DNA of 40,702 bases from a virus, in the IMG/VR virus record IMGVR_UViG_3300028743_000013, positions 1-40,702 of that record. One strand, written 5' to 3'. A model generated the notes under the pieces. It saw nothing but the letters and a program-made list of their open reading frames with translations. It made no database searches and had not been told where the DNA came from. Shown in pieces: positions 1-29,413 of this stretch. The translations under genes were made by a program, and so were the position numbers. Within the stretch, counting starts at the first letter, position 1; each line of letters begins with the position of its first letter.

Positions 1-968
1 ATAGGCTTAAATATGGTGATATACGTGATCTTAGTGAGAATCAGAAAAAAATTAAAGGTTGGGAATATGTAAAAACAGATGGTAGTAGGGTAACATTATC
101 TGAAAATCAAATACTTTATATACCATATTTGGATATAGATACTACAGGAAATCTGTCTTATGTTGAAAGATTACTCAGGGATTTCAACTTAAAAAGAAAA
201 TTAGAGGATGCTACAGTTGGTTGGTTTATCATGAATTGCCAATCACGTATAAAGATGGTAGTACCTGTTGGTAATAAAACAACAGATAAAGCACTTGAAG
301 CATTAAGGAAATTTGTTAATCATTTTAAAGAAACATTACTTATAAATTTTGACAGTGGTGAGGTTACTGTAAACGGTCAACCATCTATATCGTACTCAAG
401 GAATATTGTAGTACCATCGGTTAATGGTTCTCAATCACAGATAGACACACTTAAACAGGAAGGTCCAGATTTGACAAACATGAAAGTTGTTGATTATTTT
501 AATGGTAGACTAAACGAAATATCTAGACTTCCAACAAAACGATTTGATAGAGCTGATAATAATGGTGGTGGAAAGGTTATATTTTACGCTGATGATAACT
601 TATCCTATGAGGATTTATCTTACTTCAATTTTATAAATCGTATGATGACTACTTTTAACCAAGTACTTTCAGCACCAATTTATATAAATTGTATGCTTAA
701 ACATAAAGAATTAAAAGCAGACAAATCTTTTAGAACATCGTTTGGAATAAAACACAATGCCAATTTCTTGATTGAGGATGCCAAACAAACAATGACAGTT
801 AAGAAAAAACTCGATATGATTAAATTGTATGAGGCTATAAAAAATGATAAAGGTCAACCAATGTACTCTCAAAAATATCTATATATTGACAAATTCGCAA
901 TTATGACATTGGAAGAATTTGAGAAAAACAAAACAATGATTGAAGAAGAATCACCACATACAAATTAA
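1..968 (+). CDS. Portal protein, T4 gp20-like (C-terminal part, cut by left edge)
   Basis: The reading frame is open to the left edge (first full codon at position 3), so only about the last 320 residues are present. The stretch SYVERLLRDFNLKRKLEDA, the following VVPVGN segment, and FNGRLNEISRLPTKRF match the order of conserved segments in T4 gp20 (clip/stem region, then the wing). The end, with SYFNFINRMMTTFN and FLIEDAKQTMTVKKKLDMI, matches the gp20 C-terminus. In the family the protein forms the dodecameric ring at the head vertex through which terminase pumps DNA. It has no start here; the TTG at 129 and internal ATGs lie inside conserved sequence and are not starts. Family call by eye, fairly sure. 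Confidence 0.85.
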   Translation, partial: RLKYGDIRDLSENQKKIKGWEYVKTDGSRVTLSENQILYIPYLDIDTTGNLSYVERLLRDFNLKRKLEDATVGWFIMNCQSRIKMVVPVGNKTTDKALEALRKFVNHFKETLLINFDSGEVTVNGQPSISYSRNIVVPSVNGSQSQIDTLKQEGPDLTNMKVVDYFNGRLNEISRLPTKRFDRADNNGGGKVIFYADDNLSYEDLSYFNFINRMMTTFNQVLSAPIYINCMLKHKELKADKSFRTSFGIKHNANFLIEDAKQTMTVKKKLDMIKLYEAIKNDKGQPMYSQKYLYIDKFAIMTLEEFEKNKTMIEEESPHTN

Positions 969-3194: not shown

Positions 3195-4412
3195 ATGGTA
3201 TATAATTTAGGTTTACAGTACTGCAGGTTTAAGCAAGGACAAGAGGTGACAGTACAAGAAATTAAAGATGAAATTATACGTCTTGAAAACTTGAGATTTA
3301 CCAAAAAGAGTGAGGATTTATCTTTGAAAAAAATCCTCAATTCAATATATGGTGTATTTGGCTTTAGTAATTTTGTACTATATGACAAATATGTTGCCTC
3401 ATCAATATCAACACAATCAGCTTATGTAATTAAATATACCAAATTTTGGTTCAATAAGTACTTTAAGGAAAGATTTCCATACATATACGATGTTCATAAA
3501 CAACTTGGAATAACAAAGGTAATACCTGTGACAGGTGATATTGTTATATATGGTGATACTGATTCCATATTTGTTAATTATGGCAAAATTATTAAGAATA
3601 CTGATTATAAAGGTAGCGTTCAAGATTTCATATTAAAATTAAACGAACTTGACATATATCCCGCACTTGGTCATATGCTTTCGTATTTTATCGGCTTACA
3701 TAATGGTTTACAGACAAGAATATCGGGTAAGCCATGTCTTAACTTAACATTTGAGCAAATAGTTGGTAAATTCCTTATTACCGCTAAAAAAAGGTATATT
3801 AAGGAATCATTATGGGCTGATGGTAATACTTTTGGAAGATATGAAAATGTAAAAGCCGTTGGTCTCGAAATAAATCAGGCATCTGTACCAAAATTTATAC
3901 GTAATAAATTGAAAGAGATTGTTATTGACTATATTATAAAAGTAGATAATATAGATTATGCGGTAATAATAGAAAAAGTAAAGCAAGTAAAGGAAGAATT
4001 TATACATACTGACATAATAAATGTCCTACCCGCACAAAGGGTAAACAATTTGGGTAAATACATTCTTGAAAGTTCAAACAATGAAATAAAGACAATTGCG
4101 GGTTCTCAGGCATATATGAGAGCAATAGCACAATATAATAATGAGATTTCCATGTCATCTAATGAGATAAAGCAAAAATATTCTATAATAAAATCGGGTG
4201 ATAAAGTTCAATGGTATTGGACATCAAATGCATCAACAGATGTGTTTGCCTTTCCGATAGGTGTAATACCACCTCAATTTTTGCAGAAGTTTCCTGTATC
4301 ATACGATGTACAATTTATGACTAATTATTTAGCATATTTAAATAGAATATTATCAGCAATAGGATTACAAGAAATACCTTCATCTTTAGTGACTTTTAAT
4401 TCGCTTTGGTAA
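3195..4412 (+). CDS. Family B DNA polymerase, C-terminal half of a split gp43
   Basis: 405 residues. Motif B LKKILNSIYG (44-53), motif C YGDTDS (119-124; catalytic Asp121 and Asp123), the KKRYI segment and a thumb with YMRAIAQYN follow the T4 gp43 order. The end, YDVQFMTNYL to the terminal FNSLW, resembles the gp43 tail that contacts the sliding clamp. Missing are the exonuclease domain, motif A and most of the fingers: the protein starts only about 45 residues before motif B. The upstream stop belongs to the helicase and no N-terminal half is visible in the window, so the partner must be encoded elsewhere. It starts directly in polymerase sequence, with no C-intein seen. Confidence 0.88.
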   Translation: MVYNLGLQYCRFKQGQEVTVQEIKDEIIRLENLRFTKKSEDLSLKKILNSIYGVFGFSNFVLYDKYVASSISTQSAYVIKYTKFWFNKYFKERFPYIYDVHKQLGITKVIPVTGDIVIYGDTDSIFVNYGKIIKNTDYKGSVQDFILKLNELDIYPALGHMLSYFIGLHNGLQTRISGKPCLNLTFEQIVGKFLITAKKRYIKESLWADGNTFGRYENVKAVGLEINQASVPKFIRNKLKEIVIDYIIKVDNIDYAVIIEKVKQVKEEFIHTDIINVLPAQRVNNLGKYILESSNNEIKTIAGSQAYMRAIAQYNNEISMSSNEIKQKYSIIKSGDKVQWYWTSNASTDVFAFPIGVIPPQFLQKFPVSYDVQFMTNYLAYLNRILSAIGLQEIPSSLVTFNSLW

Positions 4413-4510: not shown

Positions 4511-5017
4511 ATGGCTAACGAAAATATATACAGTACCGAAAGGGTAGAAGAAATATTAAAAGAATATAATAAAACGGGATACTTACCAAGGAACAACCCA
4601 TTTTATCTTAAAGATATAAGGAAAAGGAAAGGTTATTTACATTTCCAATATACCGATAAAGAAATAACAGAGCTTGCTAAATTACAAGCATCATGTCTAT
4701 ACTTTGCTAATAATTATGCATATTGTATGACAGATGATGGTATTCAACAGATAAAATTAAGACCATATCAATCAAGAGTGCTTAGACAATTTGAAAGCTA
4801 TAGATTTAATATATTTTTATCAAGTAGACAATCAGGTAAATGCTTGTCGGGTGATTCAATTATAACTGTTAATAACGAGAATATAACAATTAAGGATTTT
4901 TTCGAGAATATTTATTACTACAAAATAAATAAGCCTTTAGCATTTTTATTAAGAATTAAGAGATTTCTTCAAAGAAAAGTAAATAATCAAAAATTAATTA
5001 GTACATCAACCATATGA
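4511..5017 (+). CDS. Terminase large subunit N-terminal fragment fused to an N-intein
   Basis: 168 residues. Residues 1-110 look like the start of a T4 gp17-type packaging ATPase: LRPYQSRVLRQFESYRFNIF followed by the Walker A start SSRQSGK. Immediately after Lys110 comes CLSGDSIITV (from Cys111), a classic intein block A, then ITIKDFFENI. The frame stops at 5017 before any intein block B, and before the rest of the ATPase and nuclease domains. An intein at exactly this point of TerL is known from the split AceL-TerL intein. The simplest reading is a split gene whose C-intein plus TerL remainder lies outside this window; a truncated, dead gene is the alternative. ATG 4511 has the typical ATTATGGC context. 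Confidence 0.8.
   Translation: MANENIYSTERVEEILKEYNKTGYLPRNNPFYLKDIRKRKGYLHFQYTDKEITELAKLQASCLYFANNYAYCMTDDGIQQIKLRPYQSRVLRQFESYRFNIFLSSRQSGKCLSGDSIITVNNENITIKDFFENIYYYKINKPLAFLLRIKRFLQRKVNNQKLISTSTI
4841..5014 (+). mobile_element. N-terminal half of a split intein in TerL
   Basis: 58 codons from Cys111 to the terminal Ile168 of the terminase fragment. Cys1, the CLSGDS block A and the following short strand/helix pattern ITIKDFF match intein N-termini; AceL-TerL also starts Cys-x-x-Gly-Asp-Thr. No block B (TxxH) or endonuclease is present. The last 30 residues are basic and helix-like (LLRIKRFLQRK) and could help the two halves associate (inference). The stop overlaps the next gene's ATG (ATGA). 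Confidence 0.78.
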
Positions 5018-5427
5018 AAAAGTTAAAAATAAACGAGGATTGGAATCCAACAGATGTTGTCTATATTCAACAAAATTCATTATGGACATCATACTCTCCT
5101 GGCTCAGGAATGACAACCCAAATTGCGGGTGATCCCTATAAATTTAGAGGGTATCTTACCGATAAGCAAGGTGATGATCATTTTGATTCCAATGTGGCTA
5201 ATATAGCTAAATGGGCTGATAAACAGGAAGGTATAAAAGTTAAAGATGGTACTACATTATTTAAAATACCTTGTTATTGGGGATATAAACCTCAAAGGGA
5301 TTTGTCAATTTGGGGTGGTAATGTCAATCCTGATTATTATCTTTGGATGTCATTTACAAAAGCACCTAATTATAATCTTATTAATTTCTTTAAAACTAAA
5401 AACGAGGCTTTAGGGTTTCATAAGTAA
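5014..5427 (+). CDS. MKKLKI-tag protein 1, unknown function
   Basis: 137 residues, starting MKKLKINEDW. First of four adjacent genes with the same eight-residue N-terminus. The body is rich in Trp, Tyr, Gly and Pro (for example WKPQ-like and NVNPDYYLWMS segments) and gives no recognisable enzyme motif. Its ATG overlaps the TGA of the terminase-intein fragment, so it is translationally coupled to it. By analogy with the short capsid-targeting peptides of T4 internal proteins (MK..Y.EF..E), the tag may send the protein into the prohead, but that is inference. Confidence 0.7.
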   Translation: MKKLKINEDWNPTDVVYIQQNSLWTSYSPGSGMTTQIAGDPYKFRGYLTDKQGDDHFDSNVANIAKWADKQEGIKVKDGTTLFKIPCYWGYKPQRDLSIWGGNVNPDYYLWMSFTKAPNYNLINFFKTKNEALGFHK

Positions 5428-5432
5428 GTACT

Positions 5433-5684
5433 ATGAAAAAACTTAAAATTTTTGAAGGTGATGCTAACCCTGATACAGATATTACAAAAGAAAAGGTTAT
5501 TGCAAAATTGATTTCATCAGGAACTGATAAAAAGACTGCTGAAGATGTTGTAATGTACCATTATGACTATGTAATGGATTGCTTTGATAATTTGACCGTT
5601 AAAGAGGTTGCGTATAAAGCTTATGCTATATACAACAAGGAAATAGCTACTAAAGCGAAAAATGATGGAAACTATTACAATTAA
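5433..5684 (+). CDS. MKKLKIFE-tag protein 2, unknown function
   Basis: 83 residues, starting MKKLKIFEGD. After the tag and a short acidic linker comes a helical segment (KEKVIAKLISSG to YAIYNKEIATKA) without known motifs. Five bases separate it from the preceding gene. Small, soluble, and of the size of T4 internal head proteins. Function not recognised. Confidence 0.7.
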   Translation: MKKLKIFEGDANPDTDITKEKVIAKLISSGTDKKTAEDVVMYHYDYVMDCFDNLTVKEVAYKAYAIYNKEIATKAKNDGNYYN

Positions 5685-5699
5685 AAAATATAAATTATT

Positions 5700-5939
5700 A
5701 TGAAAAAATTAAAAATATTCGAAAACAATAATTCAGAATCCAAAAATATAAAGGATTTTAATAATGATACATTAAAATCTTTTTTGCAAAAATTACATGA
5801 AACTGATGATAAAATAGAGTTTAATAATGCAACAATGAAAGATGTTGATTATATATTGGGATTAGGGTGGGCTGTAAGCCATCCACAAGAAAAAGACATT
5901 GTTGGTGAGGTTTTTGATATAACAGTGTCAAATGATTAA
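5700..5939 (+). CDS. MKKLKIFE-tag protein 3, unknown function
   Basis: 79 residues, starting MKKLKIFENN. The DNA around its start (leader AAATTATT plus the first 24 coding bases) is nearly identical to that of the next gene, showing a recent duplication of the leader and tag. The rest (LKSFLQKLHETDDKIEF, VDYILGLGWAVSHP) is unrelated to its neighbours and not recognised. Confidence 0.7.
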   Translation: MKKLKIFENNNSESKNIKDFNNDTLKSFLQKLHETDDKIEFNNATMKDVDYILGLGWAVSHPQEKDIVGEVFDITVSND

Positions 5940-5951
5940 ATGTAAATTATT

Positions 5952-6269
5952 ATGAAAAAATTAAAAATATTCGAAAGCAATAATAATAGTAGAAATGACA
6001 AATACTTTACAACAATTCCTGATAATTTCGAGGGTGATATAAGATTTAGCTGCTTTGAAGGCTCTTATCCTTATATAGAACCTGTTGCTCTTAAAAATAC
6101 CACTTTGGAGAAAGCCAAAGAAGAGGCTACAAAAAAACTACAGGAACGGATGAATTACAGGAAGACGGATGAAAAATTATGGGCAAGGTTTGAAATAAAC
6201 AGCGATGGAAATAATGGCGATGGTACTTGGAAAGCTGATTCATCTAAAGACTTGGTTTTAAATCCTTAA
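5952..6269 (+). CDS. MKKLKIFE-tag protein 4, unknown function
   Basis: 105 residues, starting MKKLKIFESN, with an Asn/Ser-rich linker, then a compact body with FEGDIRFSCFEGSYPYIEPVA and a helix TTLEKAKEEATKKLQER. Last gene of the tagged cluster; a strong terminator follows 18 bases after its stop. Function not recognised. Confidence 0.7.
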   Translation: MKKLKIFESNNNSRNDKYFTTIPDNFEGDIRFSCFEGSYPYIEPVALKNTTLEKAKEEATKKLQERMNYRKTDEKLWARFEINSDGNNGDGTWKADSSKDLVLNP

Positions 6270-9768: not shown

Positions 9769-10758
9769 CTATATAGAAAAATCAGAAAATTTTCTAATAA
9801 ATTGTATATTTAAATTAATTTCCCTTGATATTTCTCTCTTCAAACAATCACGATTGTATGCAGAAATAGCACCTTTGTAATAATTACTAAATTCTGATTT
9901 TTCTTTCCATTTTTTAATCATTTCATTTCTTTCTTTCTCAGATAAATATTGTGGTTTATGTGTCCATATTCCATCATATTCTATAAACAAATCCAAAGAC
10001 TTGATATAAAAATCACAAGCAAATAAATATTTAGTTTCTTTACTATAATATCTTTTATCTCTATATTGACGAACAATATCTGAATATCCAAACAATTCTA
10101 TTAGATTATAATATATTTCATTCTCCTCTTTAGATTTTTCATAAGAACCATTTTTCTTTTTGGTTTCGTGTATTTTTGATATAGTACTTGATAGATATGA
10201 CATATTTCCTACACCATATCTTTCCAAACATGTTTTCTCATATTTTCCTTTGAATTCGTCAGTTTGTTGATACCATTCTACACCGTAAATTTTAAGATTT
10301 GTTTGCTTTGATTTTTCTACAAAATCTTCTATAAGCATATGATTTTCGACACCATATTTTTTCAAGCATGTTTCTTTATATTTTTCTTTATATTCATCAG
10401 TTTTGGAATAATTTTCGACACCATATTTTTCTAAACAAGTCAATTCTGCTTTTATATAATTTTTCTTACAATTGTCTGACCATTTTTCAGATGATTGAAA
10501 TTTTTTAGCACATATTTTTGAGCAGCAAACCTGATAACAGTATTTGTGTCTGTCAAAATTCGATTGCTTTCCACAAATTTCACAATATTGTATATTAAAA
10601 TTACTATTAATTATATGCCACATTCTTTGTTTTGGAGTTATGTGTTTGCAACTATCATCTAGAAATGAAGTTAATTCACATATTTTCCTAAATTCACATA
10701 TTTTAATACTTGATTTGTATGTGTTGTTATTATACCAATTTATTAAATCATTGTACAT
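9769..10758 (-). CDS. Homing endonuclease-like protein, Vsr/EDxHD type with zinc-finger and YGVEN repeats
   Basis: 329 residues on the minus strand, the only convincing reverse gene here. Residues about 58-85 carry a cysteine zinc finger (YCEICGKQSN ... CCSKICAKKF). Four repeats of about 26 residues follow, each with KYGVEN-like cores (CLEKYGVEN, CLKKYGVEN, NLKIYGVEW, CLERYGVGN), probably DNA-binding. The C-terminal domain has FACDFYIKSLDLFIEYDGIWTH: the E-x-D-G-x3-H pattern of Vsr-like/EDxHD homing nucleases. Such nucleases are known free-standing or associated with fractured, intein-split phage genes. It ends 8 bases from the tape-measure-like gene, suggesting insertion between genes. Target site unknown. 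Confidence 0.72.
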   Translation of the reverse strand: MYNDLINWYNNNTYKSSIKICEFRKICELTSFLDDSCKHITPKQRMWHIINSNFNIQYCEICGKQSNFDRHKYCYQVCCSKICAKKFQSSEKWSDNCKKNYIKAELTCLEKYGVENYSKTDEYKEKYKETCLKKYGVENHMLIEDFVEKSKQTNLKIYGVEWYQQTDEFKGKYEKTCLERYGVGNMSYLSSTISKIHETKKKNGSYEKSKEENEIYYNLIELFGYSDIVRQYRDKRYYSKETKYLFACDFYIKSLDLFIEYDGIWTHKPQYLSEKERNEMIKKWKEKSEFSNYYKGAISAYNRDCLKREISREINLNIQFIRKFSDFSI

Positions 10759-26021: not shown

Positions 26022-26095
26022 GCTCCCTTAGCTCAGTTGGTCAGAGCAAAACACTCATAATGTTGAGGTCATAGGTTCAAGTCCTGTAGGGAGCA
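26022..26095 (+). tRNA. tRNA with CAU anticodon (Met or Ile2)
   Basis: Acceptor GCTCCCT pairs with AGGGAGC; D stem GCTC/GAGC with loop AGTTGGTCA; anticodon loop CTCATAA (anticodon CAT); T arm ATAGG-TTCAAGT-CCTGT (one G-T). Discriminator A; CCA not encoded. The first anticodon-stem pair is A/G, slightly off. CAU may mean elongator Met, initiator, or Ile after lysidine modification; the 5' G-C pair argues against an initiator. Confidence 0.93.
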
Positions 26096-26223
26096 CAGAC
26101 TGTTTATTAGATACGACTATAGAGAGAATATTGCATCTCTCTAATCTATGAACGAAAGGATGGTTAGTCCCATCCTGAGAGATACAGGATAAAGAGTTAT
26201 TCTGATATAAAAAGTGAAAAATC
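26096..26223 (+). other. Spacer RNA between tRNA and tmRNA with two hairpins
   Basis: AGAGAGA...TCTCTCT and AGGATGG...CCATCCT form clear hairpins. No reading frame. Probably part of the precursor transcript from which tRNA and tmRNA are cut. Confidence 0.4.
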
Positions 26224-26577
26224 GGGGGTGCTTGGTTTTGATTGCGGTTTAGGGTGGTATAAGTTCAATGGAGATTATCAGTTCTCCTTTTAAAAAGGTA
26301 AACCAAATAACAGGCAAAAATACAATCAAATCATTGGGTAACAAGGTTATTGCAATGATATCTCCAAGAGTAGTAGCATTTGCTGCTTAAGGAAGCCTAA
26401 TTTAGTTTTTTAAAGTTTGCCGATGTCATAAATCGGATGGTGGACTGCACTGTTTCCAAACAGTACCCAAATTCTTATAAGATGCTGAAAGGTGGTAAGA
26501 TTAACCTCATGCACTAAGTTGTAAAAAGACTTGTATTAACCAATCGTAAGACGAGTGTTCGACTCACTCCACCTCCA
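26224..26577 (+). ncRNA. ssrA: tmRNA (ssrA), phage-encoded
   Basis: 354 bases. GGGGGTG at the 5' end pairs with CACCTCC at the 3' end (one G-T). The 5' part GGTTTTGATTGCGG resembles the tmRNA D-loop region. The T arm GAGTG-TTCGACT-CACTC directly abuts the acceptor. A tag frame runs from GGC at 26313 to TAA at 26390, preceded by TAACA, which has the T and A expected at -5 and -4 of the resume codon. The tag is 25 residues, from GKNTIKSLGN to SPRVVAFAA. CCA is not encoded. tmRNA frees stalled ribosomes and tags the product for proteolysis. A strong terminator follows. Confidence 0.92.
26313..26390 (+). other. tmRNA tag reading frame (25 codons plus TAA)
   Basis: Begins with Gly, as Bacteroidota tags commonly do, and ends VAFAA, close to the ALAA degron end. 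The length is well above the usual 9-12 residues, and the middle (NKVIAMI) is hydrophobic. Resume codon assigned by the upstream TAACA and by frame with the TAA. Confidence 0.75.
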
Positions 26578-26585
26578 CTTTAAGT

Positions 26586-28849: not shown

Positions 28850-29413
28850 ATGGATGCCGATAATGTATTGAAAAGTATGAAAAAACTGCAGATATTCAAA
28901 CCTGATTTAGAAGGATTCCTACTCAACCATGTGGAACTCAATCCATCTAAATCTCAAATAGAATCGGGAGAATATGACAAAGCTGCAATTATTATTCAGG
29001 GGATGAATATAACCATTGAAAATCCAAAAGGTTCTACACGTTCGGGTGTTGATGATAATGGTAAAAAATGGTCAACGGAAATGAAAAATCATTATGGGTA
29101 CTTTGATAATACACATGACAGAATAGGAGAAGATATTGATGTATTTATAGGTGATAACACCAATAGTACTATGGTATATGTTGTAGATCAGATAGACCCT
29201 TTAACAGGTAAATTTGATGAAAGTAAAGTAATGCTTGGATATAACAGCCATCAAGATGCTAAAGAATCATATTTGAATAATTATGATAAAGATTGGAAAG
29301 GTTTTCAAAATATAACACCCGTACATATAGATAAATTCAAAGAATGGTTGTATGATGGCGGAAGGCAACTTATACCATTTCATAAATATCTCGATACCCC
29401 AAAACCAATATAA
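28850..29413 (+). CDS. Phage inorganic-pyrophosphatase-like (InPase) domain protein
   Basis: 187 residues. ENPKGSTRSGVDDNGKKWST, NHYGYFDNTHDRIGEDIDVF, VVDQIDPLTGKFDESKVMLG and GFQNITPVHIDKFKEWL are the ordered signatures of the InPase domain found in phage structural and polyvalent proteins. That domain is named for its fold; diphosphatase activity is not proven. An alternative start at 28877 would give MKKLQIFKPD, very like the MKKLKIFE tag of the 5-6 kb cluster. Confidence 0.75.
   Translation: MDADNVLKSMKKLQIFKPDLEGFLLNHVELNPSKSQIESGEYDKAAIIIQGMNITIENPKGSTRSGVDDNGKKWSTEMKNHYGYFDNTHDRIGEDIDVFIGDNTNSTMVYVVDQIDPLTGKFDESKVMLGYNSHQDAKESYLNNYDKDWKGFQNITPVHIDKFKEWLYDGGRQLIPFHKYLDTPKPI

Follow-up and report, generated by a model that had tools for sequence, protein, structure and literature searches.

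How does a phage obtain a working terminase when the gene for it appears to stop inside an intein? The question is raised by an open reading frame (ORF) of 168 residues at positions 4511-5017 (plus strand) of a virus record of 40,702 bases, IMGVR_UViG_3300028743_000013, which in its whole length is called the window here. An earlier, sequence-only reading had described this ORF as a large terminase (TerL) gene broken inside a candidate split intein of atypical layout. Here we report that the gene is not simply broken, as a matching C-intein/TerL gene is present in the same phage. Very likely, the window ORF encodes the N-terminal precursor of a naturally split, trans-splicing TerL whose intein halves dock through a helical hairpin, with an origin that can be proposed from its relatives.

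Residues 36-111 of the product match T4-type TerL profiles (phrog_5989, E=7.6e-15; phrog_36964, E=4.2e-11, the latter match extending into the intein part), and similarity to T4 gp17 (2o0h) reaches the Walker A lysine (phmmer E=6.7e-4). As first described, the Walker A start SSRQSGK runs directly into the intein: Cys1 is codon 111 (TGC, 4841-4843), immediately after the lysine that ends the N-extein. The frame likewise stops 58 residues after the intein start (CLSGDSIITVNNENITIKDFFENIYYYKINKPLAFLLRIKRFLQRKVNNQKLISTSTI, then TGA), ahead of block B, of which none occurs in the ORF. Its 3' end overlaps the next gene by ATGA. The ORF is divided as follows.

4511..4840, plus strand: TerL N-extein, residues 1-110, T4-type ATPase up to the Walker A lysine (SSRQSGK); from phrog_5989, T4 gp17 and the flush continuation in the partner gene
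4841..4912, plus strand: N-intein core with Cys1, block A strands and first helix (CLSGDSIITVNNENITIKDFFENI); from the sequence, alignments A1 and A5, and the Hint fold of a contiguous homologue
4913..5014, plus strand: C-terminal extension of the N-intein with a conserved helix (YYYKINKPLAFLLRIKRFLQRKVNNQKLISTSTI), the first helix of the split hairpin; kept in all split relatives found
5015-5017, plus strand: stop codon of the TerL N-half

Partner gene and predicted spliced terminase

No C-intein/TerL partner lies within the window, but since the window is itself one virus record, this absence means little. The record IMGVR_UViG_3300031521_000018 (G001, 125,373 bases) holds the whole window (40.7 kb) at ~100% identity and represents the same phage. 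Profile searches of G001 matched TerL in just two places: one is the N-half, and the other, near 39.5-40.2 kb, is on the opposite strand and holds the C-half, ~36.4 kb away. The C-intein of 146 residues ends ILSHN (SYFSNDILSHN) and is followed by Ser+1 (SITSGIF) and the remainder of the ATPase, including Walker B (ILYCDEFA) and then a TST motif.

L015 3501-4589, minus strand: TerL C-half with the C-intein, beginning MGLLEILEKTLNAILKIVIFLNYNLWKYKVEED...
L019 18015-18890, minus strand: separate TerL nuclease gene of G001 (E=6.7e-34)
L055 11745-12590, plus strand: separate TerL nuclease gene of the relative G005, introduced below (E=1e-36)

The predicted spliced product reads SSRQSGK|SITSGIF, in which Ser+1 takes the place of the Walker A Ser/Thr. 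Alignment with T4 gp17 carries the N-half up to chain position 191/192 and finds homology of the C-half starting at 194, beyond S147/I148; the junction has zero gap and zero overlap, with nothing lost or duplicated, and neither precursor by itself contains a complete P-loop. An absent partner and an intact second TerL had been named beforehand as findings that would speak against a split intein; the partner is there, and profile searches found no intact TerL in G001 (125 kb) or G005 (167 kb).

The partner had been expected to join a C-intein ending HN to both Walker B and the nuclease. A C-intein ending HN|Ser is indeed fused to the Walker B ATPase, whereas the nuclease is a third gene. The C-half stops where the ATPase domain ends, so that ATPase and nuclease do not share one polypeptide. 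Both phages carry a separate TerL nuclease gene (E about 1e-34 to 1e-36), which a search with PF17289 left undetected but a purpose-built profile of eight TerL nuclease domains did detect, and its acidic motifs DLAEG.GGD, LENN and GNDD are in place. With the nuclease in a gene of its own, the terminase would therefore be made from three dispersed genes, two of them joined by the intein.

The same arrangement is found in a relative, IMGVR_UViG_3300031918_000005 (G005, 167 kb), which keeps both TerL halves (68% identity to the window phage in the N-half, 83% in the C-half) on opposite strands about 40 kb apart. The neighbours are shared as well: next to the N-half lie an MKKLK(I/V)FE gene and a polymerase C-half, and downstream of the C-half lies a polymerase N-half. 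Between the two phages the synonymous substitution rate (dS) is above 1, and the ratio of nonsynonymous to synonymous rates (dN/dS) is 0.11 in the N-extein, about 0.23 in the N-intein (48 codons, dS 1.27), 0.10 in the C-intein and 0.07 in the C-extein. By these comparisons both intein halves are maintained under constraint. Across 17 C-halves the block B His (H84) and block F Asp (D127) are invariant and the terminal Asn (N146) is nearly so. Together with Cys1, the HN|S junction and two genes with gapless exteins, these residues are hallmarks of a class 1 split intein. Four other viral contigs encode the product of the ORF at 4511-5017 with 100% identical amino acids; these copies, the 68% identical relative and the constrained N-intein argue that it is neither a chance frame nor a decayed gene.

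The helix pair in split and unsplit relatives

Searches with alignments of the N-halves and of the C-inteins gathered a wider family, in which some 25 related split inteins share the extension helix. In these relatives the N-inteins are 47-69 residues long, the N-halves end in a conserved tail (e.g., LYFETLKLQRPLTLIEKIKWSLWKAYTWLDSF) and the C-halves start with a helix (e.g., MINLLKGIILILIGFIETIEYR). Three natural unsplit forms have both helices adjacent: L137 (801 residues), L156-158 (815) and L164 (800). An AlphaFold2 model of L137, built from a 25-row alignment (mean predicted local distance difference test score, pLDDT, 77.6; intein mostly above 87), contains in order a helix at 146-157, two helices at 162-174 and 179-193 separated by a four-residue turn, and the remaining Hint strands. 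The two helices form a confident hairpin (pLDDT about 88-96), and its turn is the split point in all other family members (alignment A5). Foldseek places the model among inteins: VidaL 6vgv (template modelling score, TM, 0.80 to target), Mvu TFIIB, gp41-1 6qaz (0.72) and Cat 6dsl (30% identity over 103 columns). The Hint fold is thus seen in the model, in the Foldseek matches and in sequence profile matches.

The sequence-only reading had called the basic C-terminal extension of the N-intein unusual and suggested that it could drive assembly. Charge as the pairing driver is unsupported, as the partner helix is likewise net positive, and the extension is not a one-off; it is notable instead for contributing one of the two helices in a conserved hairpin that unsplit relatives also have. 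Because both helices are net positive and weakly amphipathic, their pairing, if any, would more likely be hydrophobic than electrostatic.

In most contigs with both halves, these lie on the same strand with 0.3-2.6 kb between them, and the gap, where read, is usually occupied by an ORF of endonuclease type, with an IIEFNGDYWH motif and a match to homing endonuclease phrog_3339 (E=2.9e-7). N-half, endonuclease-like ORF and C-half together take about 1.0-1.1 kb; where there are two endonuclease-like ORFs, the distance is 2.6 kb. Free-standing endonucleases lie between the halves in L060-L065, L074, L140, L149, L153 and L165; no endonuclease directly links the halves in the window phage or G005. 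Two groups of the family are more widely spaced, at about 4.5 kb and 9-12 kb, including the huge-phage record LR756501 (735 kb), and among the family members found the window lineage alone has its halves on opposite strands. Split forms do not group apart from unsplit ones in a tree of 34 C-halves, where well-supported branches require at least two changes between them.

Further members of the family show other variations. In L097, L098 and L102, an endonuclease remnant of 111 residues is the sole content between the halves, an apparent intermediate in endonuclease loss. The huge-phage locus L039 (LR756500.1 190000-202000) has a TerL C-intein ending SSQ|T, with Gln replacing the terminal Asn, a second, shorter TerL-like ATPase ORF (3336-4151, minus strand) behind the C-intein gene, and ORFs with an MKYIQTYKDFL leader upstream of the N-half. 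Two resemblances outside the family were set aside: the adjacent “terminase” genes gp17.2/gp17 of Sinorhizobium phage phiM12 contain no intein and are a TerL with a fragment-like paralogue, and cyanophages ACG-2014d and S-WAM2 match the C-half but have an intact TerL without intein. A scan of genome contigs added a single locus, itself uninformative.

Proposed mechanism and rival explanations

In the mechanism that we propose, the N-intein (58 residues) and C-intein (146 residues) would bind through the hairpin, to which each half contributes one helix, and through completion of the Hint fold. Splicing would proceed by an N-S acyl shift at Cys1, transesterification to Ser+1 and Asn cyclisation, and ligation would unite the Walker A lysine with the Walker A serine to yield the TerL ATPase, the nuclease domain being supplied by the separate gene. 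Most likely, the system would have begun as an unsplit intein, into the hairpin turn of which a homing endonuclease inserted itself, giving the order N-half, endonuclease, C-half that relatives still have; the endonuclease would later have been lost and the halves dispersed. We infer trans-splicing, pairing of the helices in trans and this order of events, and consider the split intein real and very probably functional. It is a more tentative idea, and one we lean against, that the helix pair serves as a dedicated docking module which raises affinity, orders assembly and permits distant halves on opposite strands, with TerL trans-splicing acting as a check that couples two transcription units to packaging.

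Several observations weigh against the proposed mechanism. The window lineage is a long branch, although inside the helix-bearing family, in the tree of C-halves, and the first 30 codons of its C-half are weakly constrained (dN/dS 0.46, few codons). The AlphaFold2 model of the window phage C-half is of low confidence (mean pLDDT 56.6), with an N-terminal helix at 3-28 (pLDDT about 72-79 across the first 20 residues), and the amphipathicity of the individual helices is weakly above that of shuffles. An intact TerL could still lie elsewhere, because the metagenomic contigs (125 kb and 167 kb) are of uncertain completeness.

Possibly incomplete contigs, and an N-intein that evolves faster than the exteins, would fit a reading in which the halves are decaying, non-splicing remnants and the DNA is packaged by another, intact terminase in a part of the genome missing from the assembly. 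We consider this improbable: both halves, their catalytic residues and the flush junction are kept in two phages under purifying selection with dS well above 1, profile searches of both contigs gave no other TerL, and TerL is an essential late gene whose free ATPase halves have no complete P-loop. It is less probable still that the unligated products associate into a functional ATPase by fragment complementation, as is assumed for the same phage's DNA polymerase. That polymerase is split at the fingers without an intein, and the same genome has a free-standing nuclease domain; naked gene fission is therefore tolerated in the window lineage. In the terminase, however, the break interrupts the P-loop (K|S), which if nicked is unlikely to bind ATP-Mg, and complementation would have no use for the motifs of splicing, all of which are maintained (Cys1, block B His, block F Asp, HN|S). 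Joining at the RNA level, by a trans-spliced or split group I intron, has a precedent in that terL genes of other large Bacteroidota phages commonly carry group I introns (PMC12363816). We give it the least credence, as both stretches between the exteins are open reading frames with intein blocks and Hint homology; neither the window nor the partner locus has a match to an intron family that reaches the Rfam threshold.

Under protein trans-splicing, the reading that we favour, this would be an unusual case of a three-gene terminase that acquires its ATP-binding loop only through protein splicing. A path can be traced from an unsplit intein, through a gene interrupted by an endonuclease, to halves of an essential gene on opposite strands with 36 kb between them. 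The natural split and unsplit forms lend themselves to direct comparison, as a test of the way in which the halves of split inteins find their partners, and the family may be a source of new protein ligation tools.

Genomic setting and relation to known inteins

The TerL halves have the following genes in their surroundings.

3195..4412, plus strand: C-half of a family B DNA polymerase, split without intein, adjoining the TerL N-half and conserved in the relative (PF00136 E=1.7e-14; phrog_1918 E=3.3e-45; L034; MaF61 polymerase comparison)
L015 1165-2649, minus strand: N-half of the family B DNA polymerase, near the TerL C-half
3..968, plus strand: T4-type portal protein (gp20-like), its 5' end beyond the window (PF07230 E=8.6e-33)
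9769-10758, minus strand: free-standing DUF7487/phrog_3339 homing-endonuclease-like gene, between the gene for a protein of 1137 residues and a head-closure-like gene

The polymerase is split between palm motif A and fingers motif B, an arrangement conserved in G005, and phrog_2062 and phrog_1918 seem already to be families of such halves. One simple rearrangement behind both the TerL and polymerase splits is at odds with the gene order. The endonuclease-like gene at 9769-10758 is not the one that relatives carry between their halves; it has no blastp similarity to that of L060, and weak, repeat-type similarity to a second ORF in L149. An N-terminal leader, MKKLKIFE(S/G/N), occurs on small, unrelated-looking ORFs in the window (four in a row behind the TerL N-half at 5014-6269, and 28850-29413), at 119.4 and 121.0 kb of G001 and on seven ORFs in G005; we take it to be reminiscent of the cleaved capsid-targeting leaders of T4 internal proteins. 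At 26022-26580 the window also holds a phage transfer-messenger RNA (RF00023, 70.6 bits; predicted tag GKNTIKSLGNKVIAMISPRVVAFAA) adjoining a tRNA-Met.

The kinship with the AceL-TerL type claimed from the sequence is upheld by homology to Cat, the AceL/GOS-TerL consensus intein: family profiles match its C-fragment (6dsl_B) at E=1.1e-9 with alignment A5 and 8.8e-6 with A3. They also match the VidaL and gp41-1 inteins; gp41-1 is matched, too, by the C-half of the window phage itself (1.4e-5). With the partner gene and the K|S site in Walker A, this homology bears out the original proposal of an atypically split TerL intein.

Like AceL, GOS-TerL and Cat, the window intein has a T4-type TerL as host protein, a short N-intein split after the first helix (placed here by helix 146-157 of the L137 model) and Cys1 plus Asn-end chemistry. 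From the sequence-only reading and the family assignment, we take the AceL insertion site to be the TerL Walker A motif, as in the window phage. Unlike these inteins, the window phage has Ser+1 rather than Cys+1, and its family has a hairpin helix on each half, whereas the alignment with the Cat C-fragment starts only past the position of helix 2. The N-intein also differs in length: its 58 residues, and the 47-69 of relatives, lie beyond those of AceL (25), GOS (37) and Cat (30) (PMC11766414) and beyond the stated natural range of 15-37 residues for atypically split N-inteins (PMC13014065).

In Ackermannviridae (Klebsiella phage Magnus, Vibrio phage VAP7), contiguous TerL inteins share the Walker A insertion site (K|T), but are unsplit mini-inteins in one ORF, with no hairpin motif recognisable in sequence. 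VidaL (6vgv, 145 residues) and gp41-1 (6qaz, 128 residues) are among the nearest solved folds of the contiguous homologue, yet are shorter, with no room for a helical insert of roughly 50 residues, and gp41-1 is canonically split. The literature searched, whose coverage excludes key papers, gave no description of a TerL split intein that has helical extensions; that the helix pair is new among natural split inteins is probable rather than proven. As cited in PMC10448857 and PMC11766414, the “fractured genes” of Dassa et al. 2009 have split intein halves flanking a free-standing homing endonuclease. So far as these citations convey them, they resemble the close family members with the order N-half, endonuclease-like ORF, C-half, but differ from the window phage and G005, whose halves lie 36-40 kb apart on opposite strands without a joining endonuclease. 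Judged by its sequence, the window split intein is of the AceL/GOS-TerL kind, set apart by its helix pair, its longer N-intein and the dispersal of its halves.
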